A stretch of DNA of 42,152 nt from Bacteroidales bacterium (GTDB lineage Bacteria; Bacteroidota; Bacteroidia; Bacteroidales; UBA12170), in the NCBI GenBank assembly GCA_016933745.1, contig JAFGAK010000188.1:1-42152 (forward strand). Direction: 5' to 3'. The notes under the pieces were generated by a model that had not been told where the DNA came from, made no database searches, and saw only the letters and a list, made by a program, of their open reading frames with translations. Both the position numbers and the translations under genes were made by a program. This document shows positions 38,916 through 42,152 of the stretch, in pieces. Position 1 is the stretch's first letter. Every line of letters starts with the position of its first letter.

Positions 38916-40085
38916 TTATCGGCTCTGCATCAATGCTTTGTCCATGGTATCTGTAAGACGTTCAAAAATCTCATCTTCGCTACCATGACCATTTACACTT
39001 ACAAATTTCCGCTGTTTTTCATAATAATCGCCGACACGTTTTGTACGACTAATAAATTCATCCAAGCGATTAATAATCAACTCCATACTCGCATCATAAG
39101 GACGTTTATTATCGGTTTTCCCACGGTTACTTAAACGTTTGAAGCATTCCAAAGTGGAAATTTCCATTCCAATAGCGATAGAAACACTTTGATTTAATTT
39201 AAGTAACAAGCCGTCTAAGATATAGGCTTGCACAATTGTTTTAGGAAATCCTTTGAAGATAAAGCCTTGGGCATCCGGATGGTCTTGAATTTTCCGTTCT
39301 ATTAACGTGATTGCTATTTCGTCGGGAACAATCTCTCCTTTTTCCATGTAAGGAGAAATCGTTTTACCAATTTCGGTTCTAGCGGCTACTTCGTAACGAA
39401 GCATTTTTCCGGTTGAAATGTATACGAGGTTGTATTTTTCGGCCAATTTCAAAGCTTGTGTTCCTTTTCCTGATCCCGGAGGGCCATAAAGAACCACATT
39501 AATCCACGTTTTACGTAATGTTTGTTTAATTACTTCGTTGAGCGAATTAAATATATCGGTGACATTTCCGGTTCCTTTGATTGCTTGATATTTCCCTTTT
39601 GCTTTGTAGAAATCGGCCACGGGTTTGGTTTTATCGTCGTATTCTTTTAATCTGAATTGGATTACTTCTTTGGTATCATCAGATCTTCCGGAAGTTTTTG
39701 CACGTTCCATCATTCTAGAAACAAGCTCTTCGCGAGGAACTTCCAAACTAAGCATACAAGTTAAAGAGGATTTTAAACGTAGCATTAATCCATCTAAAAT
39801 ATAAGCTTGTACGGTAGTTCGAGGAAAACCATCGAACAAGATGCCGTTGGTATTTGTGTTGTCTACAATCCTTTTTTCAATGAGTTGCACAATAATTTCG
39901 TCAGAAACCAATCCCCCCATTTCAATAACCGATTTGGCTTGCATTCCAAGCTTTGAACCTTCGGCTATTTCTTGGCGAAGCATATCGCCAGTTGAAATGT
40001 AAGTTAAATTGTACTTTTCGACTAACATTTTTGATTGTGTTCCTTTACCTGCGCCTGGGGGGCCAAACAATGCTATGTTTAACAT
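38916..40085 (-). CDS. adk: Adenylate kinase, tandem two-domain fusion with a degenerate second domain
   Basis: Residues 1-190 form a complete short-lid adenylate kinase (ATP + AMP to 2 ADP): P-loop GPPGAGKGT (8-16), GDMLR with D34, FDGFPRT with D85 and R89, and the lid SGRSDD with later arginine FRLKEY. Residues 194-389 repeat the fold. The second P-loop GPPGSGKGT (201-209) is intact, but GDMLR becomes GKMLR (K227) and DGFPR becomes KGFPK (K278, K282). In active enzymes these aspartates and the arginine help hold Mg-nucleotide, so the second half is probably catalytically weak or dead. Length 389 aa is about twice normal. It lies between hpt and obgE in the same orientation (55- and 20-bp gaps). 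Confidence 0.92.
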
Positions 40086-40842: not shown

Positions 40843-41388
40843 TTAAGCCGTTTGATCGAGCTTAATTTCAGCTGCCTTTAGCGTTCTTGCACGTGTTCGC
40901 TTTAAAAGGGTACGCTCAACTAAAGATTCAACCGGTTTGATTAGCAAAGCGATAATTCCTTTGATTCCAAGGCTAATAAAAAAATTATTGTAATAGGTTT
41001 CAATCCAAGGTTCAATAAAGGCTTCGGAAACAATGAATAAAAAGATAGCGAAAATAAAAACAAGGGTAGTAGCTCTTCGCCCAATTTTTGCTTCTGCTAA
41101 ATCATTGATCGTTTGTTCCAATTGCACATTTTTGCGCTGAATTTCTTCATTCACCAAATTTAACGCATCGTTGGTTTGATCAAGCTTACGCTGCAATCGA
41201 TCACTAATTCGAGTAATTAATTTTACTTGATCAAGCAACTCTGAATAATTGCCGGTTAAATTGGTAAGTTCTTCTTTGGTTTCCTCTTTGGTTTTATTTT
41301 CGTCTTGCAGAAAAAATTTTGATCGGTCAAGAAATGAAGCTTCATCAAAATAGATATCTTCTTTCTTTGCTTTTTTCCTTTCGGCCAT
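40843..41388 (-). CDS. Coiled-coil protein with two transmembrane helices, linked to siaB-siaC
   Basis: Not recognised as a named family. Residues about 35-100 are a heptad-rich coiled coil (ISDRLQRKLDQTNDALNLVN and following). Two transmembrane helices follow at about 106-122 (TLVFIFAIFLFIVSEAF) and 136-152, then a basic C-terminal tail (TLLKRTRARTLKAAE). There is no signal peptide. Length 181 aa. The N-terminal half should face the cytoplasm, where it could meet SiaB or SiaC. It starts 3 bp after the SiaC stop, so cotranslation and shared function are likely. It lies after SiaC, where SiaD is found in Pseudomonas, but carries no GGDEF domain. The hpt promoter lies just beyond its stop. Confidence 0.75.
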   Translation of the reverse strand: MAERKKAKKEDIYFDEASFLDRSKFFLQDENKTKEETKEELTNLTGNYSELLDQVKLITRISDRLQRKLDQTNDALNLVNEEIQRKNVQLEQTINDLAEAKIGRRATTLVFIFAIFLFIVSEAFIEPWIETYYNNFFISLGIKGIIALLIKPVESLVERTLLKRTRARTLKAAEIKLDQTA

Positions 41389-41391
41389 TTT

Positions 41392-41775
41392 CTATTCGTC
41401 TATTTCGGTATAATTAAAATGCAAACCGGTTACATCTTCGTAATCTTCGCCGGTTTCAAGCATTTCATCATCGTCGGCATCATAGCACCATTCAACACTT
41501 ACTTTTTTTCCTTCCAACTCGTTTACATCTTTTAAACGCTTTAAAACTTCGAGGATGTATTTTGAGGAGCTTGTATTGAAATATTCCAAGTACACTCTGA
41601 TATCGGTTTGCGGCAAAGCAACACTCGAGTATTCTGAAAGCCATTCCAATAAAGGATTATAAAATTCAAAAGAATTTTCAGGGATAGAACGACCACTTAA
41701 TTCCAGTTTACCCGTTTGGGCGTTGAAATTTACATAGGGTGTTTGCTTACTTCCGTTTAAAATTAACTCATTCAT
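41392..41775 (-). CDS. siaC: SiaC-family regulatory phosphoprotein (DUF1987)
   Basis: Partner-switch protein. In Pseudomonas aeruginosa SiaC is phosphorylated by SiaB and controls the diguanylate cyclase SiaD; here the output is unknown. The fold and signature are clear: TPYVNFNAQTGKLELSGRSIPENSFEFYNPLLEW at residues 12-45 and LEYFNTSSSKYILEVLKRL at 63-81. The phosphosite threonine is T68 in FNTSSSK, the same number as in P. aeruginosa. Length 127 aa. Its ATG overlaps the siaB stop (ATGA), and the coiled-coil membrane gene follows after 3 bp. Acidic C-terminal tail. Confidence 0.9.
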   Translation of the reverse strand: MNELILNGSKQTPYVNFNAQTGKLELSGRSIPENSFEFYNPLLEWLSEYSSVALPQTDIRVYLEYFNTSSSKYILEVLKRLKDVNELEGKKVSVEWCYDADDDEMLETGEDYEDVTGLHFNYTEIDE

Positions 41776-42152
41776 TCCTTATCTTTCTTTTTGTTTATCC
41801 TAACTAAAAATGTAAATCGAGCCAGAATTGAATCTACTTGTTCTATTTGGTAAACTAATTCTGATTCTGATTTCTTACGCATATCTATAAAGCCCAATCC
41901 TGCTCCTCCTTTATTAGAAATTTGGTTATTGGTAAGTACTTTACGGTACAATTCTTTTAGCTCCTCTTTCGAAAGCTGATTGACAAAATTAATCTTTTCT
42001 TCAACAATTTGGATCTGATTTTTTAATAAAAGATTACTTGTTTGGATGAAAAAATTCTCTTCATCTTCAGAAAAAGTAAACTGAACTCTTCGAACCTCTT
42101 CGTCGGATTTTCCGGCGATGCTAAAGTCGCGAGTGTGATGATATAGGTTTTG
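41772..42152 (-). CDS. siaB: SiaB-family protein kinase, C-terminal part (cut by the window edge)
   Basis: The open frame runs from the window edge to a TGA at 41772 and gives 126 residues, so the N-terminus lies outside. It contains RDFSIAGKSDEEVRRVQF, a helix rich in charged residues and the glycine-rich GGAGLGFIDMRKKS followed by YQIEQVDSILARFTFLVRI. This GxGLGxIDMxRKS segment is the nucleotide-lid region of the SiaB/DUF6272 kinases, which have a GHKL-type fold. Its stop overlaps the siaC ATG by 4 bp, indicating translational coupling. What lies upstream (for example a SiaA phosphatase) cannot be seen. Confidence 0.83.
   Translation of the reverse strand, partial: QNLYHHTRDFSIAGKSDEEVRRVQFTFSEDEENFFIQTSNLLLKNQIQIVEEKINFVNQLSKEELKELYRKVLTNNQISNKGGAGLGFIDMRKKSESELVYQIEQVDSILARFTFLVRINKKKDKE

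Follow-up and report, generated by a model that had tools for sequence, protein, structure and literature searches.

The closest described system to the locus reported here is SiaABCD of Pseudomonas aeruginosa (PMC7647112, PMC8457831), in which SiaC activates SiaD (PMC8457831), a protein that has a GGDEF domain (NF038266, 7e6g). In the SiaC-SiaD crystal structure, SiaC T68 sits between the two stalk helices of SiaD, where it bonds to S82 and Q86, and D83 and Q86 of SiaD are contacted by SiaC N67 and S69 (PMC8457831). Phosphorylation of SiaC at T68 prevents SiaD binding (PMC8457831).

We analyzed a stretch of 42,152 nucleotides from a Bacteroidales bacterium (the window), which spans one contig from end to end in a MAG of 76% completeness. 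At its right end, siaB, siaC and a gene for a 181-aa protein with two transmembrane segments (2-TM), here named MEM, lie tightly packed in this order on the minus strand. The contig ends inside siaB, hence the genes upstream of siaB cannot be read in the window. The features are:

41772-42152, minus strand: siaB, SiaB-family kinase, GHKL-like, 126 codons with the 5' end cut off (PF19788/DUF6272, E=1.1e-24; NF038262 SiaB_fam_kinase, E=1.9e-22)
41392-41775, minus strand: siaC, STAS-like phosphoprotein switch of 127 aa (PF09345, E=2.4e-39)
41572-41574, minus strand: codon of SiaC T68, reading ACA; by alignment, the phospho-acceptor of P. aeruginosa SiaC
40843-41388, minus strand: MEM, open reading frame of 181 aa, putative SiaC-docking stalk and 2-TM hairpin; conserved family (A2/A3) of 15-20 sequences
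41140-41355, minus strand: putative SiaC-docking domain of MEM, residues 12-83, placed by hhalign to the docking N-termini of siaC-linked enzymes and by the NCBIfam SiaD model
41191-41211, minus strand: core SiaC-contact motif of MEM, R60-I-S-D-R-L-Q66, equivalent to SiaD R80-I-S-D-R-Y-Q86
40996-41076, minus strand: first transmembrane segment of the hairpin (TM1), by hydropathy, with conserved E122 and E126-P127
40915-40989, minus strand: second transmembrane segment (TM2), by hydropathy, with conserved K143 and K151-P152-x-E154

Separately, the window carries at 38916-40085 an adenylate kinase gene whose 389-aa product is a tandem of two complete ADK domains, an arrangement conserved in the genus.

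The gene order is shown directly: siaB and siaC share 4 bp (41772-41775) and 3 bp (41389-41391) separate siaC from MEM. The window holds the 3' two thirds of siaB, in which the N box survives as its second half (QNLYHH) and the G box (GGAGLGFIDM) is retained; the predicted catalytic Glu falls just past the contig end, in the missing 5' third, and is kept in full-length relatives. SiaC matches NF038265 under the equivalog cut-off (E=3.9e-25) and the SiaC chains of 6kko, 6kkp and 7e6g at 3e-16. It reads Y65-F66-N67-T68-S69-S70, with Y65, N67, T68 and S69 numbered as in P. aeruginosa SiaC. A first-pass annotation had described the overlap, the gap and the two-helix membrane protein, and had noted that T68 is kept; all of this held on inspection of the reading frames, hydropathy and alignment, the activity of the phospho-switch itself being inferred. 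MEM gave no Pfam match above the curated cut-off. None of MEM, SiaC and SiaB meaningfully matched a PADLOC defence model and the neighboring genes are housekeeping, so a reading as anti-phage defence was dropped.

The locus shares with SiaABCD the SiaC family, T68, SiaB as judged by the family match of the truncated gene, and a putative SiaC-docking helix at the start of the target protein; the SpoIIE/PP2C phosphatase family and the order siaA-siaB-siaC-target are shared by relatives, the order in related families. It differs in that the target is a 2-TM membrane protein rather than a GGDEF protein, and in that siaA is encoded in trans in the genus of the window. We consider the locus likely to be a genuine and conserved version of the SiaABC switch whose output is a membrane protein without enzymatic function, an inference from sequence without binding data.

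The central evidence is the N-terminal stalk of MEM. The NCBIfam SiaD model (NF038266) matches MEM residues 37-80 at SiaD 51-94 with 18.3 bits (E=0.0012), far under its 290-bit cut-off. Since this match is weak on its own, proteins with a related N-terminus were gathered from other genomes of the phylum. Comparison of the MEM N-termini with the docking N-termini of other siaC-linked proteins using hhalign gave a probability of 98.9 and E=1.1e-17 over 75 columns. When a profile of these docking N-termini, containing no MEM sequence, was searched against all PDB sequences, SiaD (7e6g) ranked first (E=2.1e-5), with both SiaC-binding stalk repeats matched. The evidence from MEM on its own is weak: the MEM profile A6 scored just 0.77 against 7e6g, and PDB searches with a single sequence or a MEM-only profile did not rank SiaD at the top. 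Thus, the link between MEM and SiaD is strong via the intermediate docking proteins and weak directly.

MEM and SiaD share the RISDRxQ stalk with its flanking heptads. Residues S62, D63 and Q66 of MEM are the equivalents of S82, D83 and Q86, which surround T68 in the SiaD complex, and S62, D63, R64, L65 and Q66 are invariant across 20 MEM proteins, down to 35% identity with that of the window. On the opposite side of the putative interface, Y65, N67, T68 and S69 are retained in all MEM-linked SiaCs. Several peripheral contact residues are changed from SiaD to MEM (R74 to Q, K77 to L, M88 to K, R90 to D and D91 to Q). MEM has one docking motif and SiaD has two, and on this basis a 2:2 rather than a 2:4 stoichiometry is merely a guess. 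The docking-domain homology and the conservation of the T68 contacts are shown, and that MEM carries a SiaC-docking stalk is well supported; physical binding of SiaC to MEM is inferred, from sequence alone.

The stalk is not confined to MEM. Proteins with the docking N-terminus follow siaC in 20/29 cases, and their C-terminal parts vary: GGDEF domain, class III adenylate cyclase, HisKA-HATPase kinase, SpoIIE phosphatase or MEM hairpin, with some proteins ending after the stalk. The siaC-adjoining enzymes of other phylum members (L168-L182, L188, L196) share a homologous 75-residue N-terminus and the operon position of MEM, but unlike MEM end in GGDEF, adenylate cyclase, HisKA-HATPase or SpoIIE domains. 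Stalk-only proteins of 77-99 aa (L183:1486-1716, L184:1450-1704, L185:1474-1728, L194:1474-1770) are encoded by the fourth gene in siaA-siaB-siaC operons, where the SiaCs have N-S-S instead of N-T-S at the phospho-site. We found no description of this docking-stalk scheme in the literature searched, in which subscription journals are largely uncovered, and the scheme is apparently undescribed.

Partner classes differ at the edge of the interface. At SiaC 29/stalk 90, Pseudomonas has D-R, most kinase cases and two SpoIIE cases have E-R, and in the MEM class R is paired with D or N. At SiaC 103/stalk 91, Pseudomonas has R-D, and in the MEM class E is paired with K, Q, R or T. These pairs could reflect co-evolution, although the changes follow clades and so represent few independent events. 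SiaC R29/I31 was ruled out as a MEM-specific partner signature; the neighboring clade of ABC-linked SiaCs has R29/I31 too, and therefore MEM partners are separable by E103/T107 and the tree only.

We then compared linkage across genomes. Among 25 full-length MEM loci, siaC directly adjoins MEM in 20 and siaB does so in 3 more. In Reichenbachiella (L102-L104), MEM adjoins siaB and siaC is encoded elsewhere; in two further loci (L100, L101) MEM is unlinked and the sole siaC sits in a siaA(SpoIIE)-siaB-siaC operon without an output gene. In a SiaC tree, all MEM-linked SiaCs group with these two orphans in a single clade (support 0.99), which includes a genome of another class (G219) and stands apart from the SiaCs of cyclase, kinase and ABC-transporter neighborhoods. 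Co-inheritance is also shown. Within the genus, among whose members are public Bacteroidales MAGs, some under the name Draconibacterium, siaC and MEM are both present in 8 genomes and both absent from 3 (Fisher p=0.006), and in the sample of the order siaC occurs in 9/9 MEM genomes compared to 140/344 overall (p=3e-4). These p-values overstate independence because the genomes are related. MEM genomes mostly have a single siaC.

Other arrangements of siaC were also seen. Some Bacteroidales genomes hold up to about 20 copies, some in tandem and many solitary without siaB (among the loci, L143 and L144). Elsewhere in the Bacteroidales, siaB and siaC as a pair often adjoin a gene for an ABC-2 type transporter of ~1010-1030 aa, with ATPase and permease in one chain, mostly convergent and sometimes co-directional (L011, L013, L014, L016-L021, L023, L024, L026, L030, L031, L207). 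This transporter, which lacks the docking stalk, is conceivably another non-cyclase partner of SiaC.

A search for GGDEF domains that gave matches in 8/14 control genomes returned none from 18 related genomes, among them every one of the 11 in the genus; MEM itself has no such domain. It is therefore very unlikely that c-di-GMP is the output of the MEM-linked switch.

The inputs are best seen in a related family (f50), where the order is siaA-siaB-siaC-MEM, with siaA directly upstream of siaB. This SiaA carries a SpoIIE domain together with a Reg_prop/Y_Y_Y beta-propeller sensor and, judged by its domains, is a membrane protein. Members of the genus of the window encode a full-length SiaA orthologue in trans (36-40% identity over about 1060 aa); none was found in the 76%-complete genome of the window itself. 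SpoIIE is present in all six siaC-bearing genus members tested, this incomplete genome excepted, and SpoIIE proteins are wholly absent from the two tested genus members without siaC and MEM (G001, G004). Directly upstream of siaA, in 14/14 loci from two families (L077, L068, L069, L089, L090, L091, L093, L096, L198-L202, L205), lies a gene whose TPR-containing product also has a caspase-like (Peptidase_C14) domain with the catalytic His (GHG) and Cys (DACESG) kept and, where complete, a signal-peptide-like start. Other inputs are a TPR-SpoIIE protein (L071), a REC-SpoIIE-SiaB fusion (L074) and, in Reichenbachiella, HK with REC-SpoIIE. Two fusions confirm the order of the pathway, REC-SpoIIE-SiaB (L074:7165-9039) and SiaB-SiaC (L012:1949-2821), each in one chain.

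The remaining claims of the first-pass annotation can now be judged. It had placed MEM in the position of SiaD as a possible output independent of c-di-GMP, which is supported on stronger grounds, the docking stalk and the lack of a detectable GGDEF domain; the homology of MEM 12-83 to the SiaC-binding stalk of SiaD was absent from it. It held that the idea would fall if MEM were rarely next to siaC, which the linkage counts above do not bear out, or if a known output were encoded on the other side, and no cyclase lies beyond siaB in the relatives examined. A SiaA-like phosphatase upstream, which it had raised, does not adjoin siaB in the genus of the window but does so in the related family. 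Its proposal of the locus as a candidate for an undescribed system held in part: the SiaABC core is known and the output is different.

The hydrophobic segments of MEM span roughly residues 105-131 and 134-158. Both cytoplasmic flanks are positively charged, from which we predict an N-in/C-in topology. The loop between the segments is a few residues long, leaving almost no periplasmic domain. AF2 predicted helices at 2-28, 34-132 (a single helix through the stalk and TM1) and 136-180, with a mean pLDDT of 75 and a pTM of 0.36; because of the low pTM the model is usable for secondary structure only. A Foldseek search of this all-helix model against the PDB returned nothing usable (one match, E=5.5). 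The 2-TM hairpin is an unnamed membrane domain without a family. Hairpins of the MEM type also end a REC protein (L073:2503-3156) and TPR proteins (L075:4650-6587, L076:6072-8048 and, more distantly, L139:421-1716). In these proteins the same or a related hairpin follows a coiled coil, as in MEM, whereas TPR repeats or a receiver domain take the place of the SiaC-docking stalk as input. This pattern fits a hairpin that serves as the output module for several kinds of input.

Taking these observations together, the likely explanation is that SiaB and SiaC are part of a SiaABC threonine-phosphorylation switch in which a membrane hairpin replaces the diguanylate cyclase as output. SiaB would phosphorylate SiaC at T68, and the SpoIIE/PP2C phosphatase SiaA, predicted to be encoded elsewhere in the genome and to bear a periplasmic beta-propeller sensor as in relatives, would strip the phosphate. 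Unphosphorylated SiaC would dock via T68 and helices 2 and 3 on the MEM stalk (residues 12-83, core RISDRLQ) and hold two stalks as a parallel coiled coil. Dimerization and the control of binding by reversible SiaC phosphorylation are inferred, and the direction of the switch rests on analogy with the P. aeruginosa precedent. Because the stalk is predicted to run as one helix into TM1, docking should alter the state of the paired hairpins (conserved E122, E126-P127, K143 and KPxE), which would give a membrane signal without c-di-GMP. What the hairpin does downstream is inferred with little evidence. Points against the explanation are the weak direct match of MEM to SiaD, the changed peripheral contacts, the lack of a SiaA in the incomplete genome of the window, the low pTM of the model and the separate location of siaC in Reichenbachiella.

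The main rival, which we regard as unlikely, is that MEM is a membrane scaffold that tethers SiaC near the membrane phosphatase SiaA, with another SiaC target as the true output. The first-pass annotation had offered a scaffold, and this alternative still stands beside a true output. In its favor, MEM is a 2-TM hairpin without a catalytic domain, the stalk-only proteins in the same operon position demonstrate that docking proteins without an enzyme exist, and the related-family SiaA also appears to be a membrane protein. Against it, an output domain lies behind the stalk in every other long docking-stalk protein, MEM genomes mostly encode one siaC with no second docking protein found in the genome of the window, and the hairpin also occurs behind TPR repeats and a REC domain, as expected of an output module. 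A second rival places MEM upstream of the switch, as a membrane sensor that sequesters SiaC or passes it to SiaA or SiaB. In support, membrane location is common among inputs, and the operon encodes MEM as a membrane protein; however, MEM has almost no periplasmic domain, SiaA in relatives already bears dedicated sensors (propeller, TPR, REC/HK), and the docking site of MEM equals that of the output SiaD, making this reading very unlikely. A diguanylate cyclase acting in trans, as the activation of SiaD by SiaC in Pseudomonas might suggest, is all but excluded by the 0/18 genomes with a GGDEF match. MEM as a chance neighbor without a functional tie to SiaC, for which it may be said that siaC is common in the order and MEM rare, is likewise practically ruled out by linkage conserved across families and another class, docking homology, co-inheritance and the SiaC clade.

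Returning to the preferred reading of MEM as the output, a bolder version is possible when its parts are taken jointly. The hairpin may be a SiaC-gated membrane effector, either an inside-out signalling device or an ion-conducting bundle with a conserved intramembrane E122/E126-K143 pair, within a complete envelope pathway running from the TPR-caspase protein and propeller phosphatase to SiaB, SiaC and the membrane, and docking stalks may be a general plug-in. The SiaC pattern suggests a portable phospho-controlled clamp, with the docking stalk as the plug-in placed before many different outputs, here a membrane protein in organisms with no detectable diguanylate cyclase. An unannotated N-terminal domain common to several signalling enzymes thereby gains a place, as does a 2-TM domain without a family. 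If the bolder reading is true, one phospho-switch would drive cyclases, kinases, phosphatases and membrane effectors via docking stalks.
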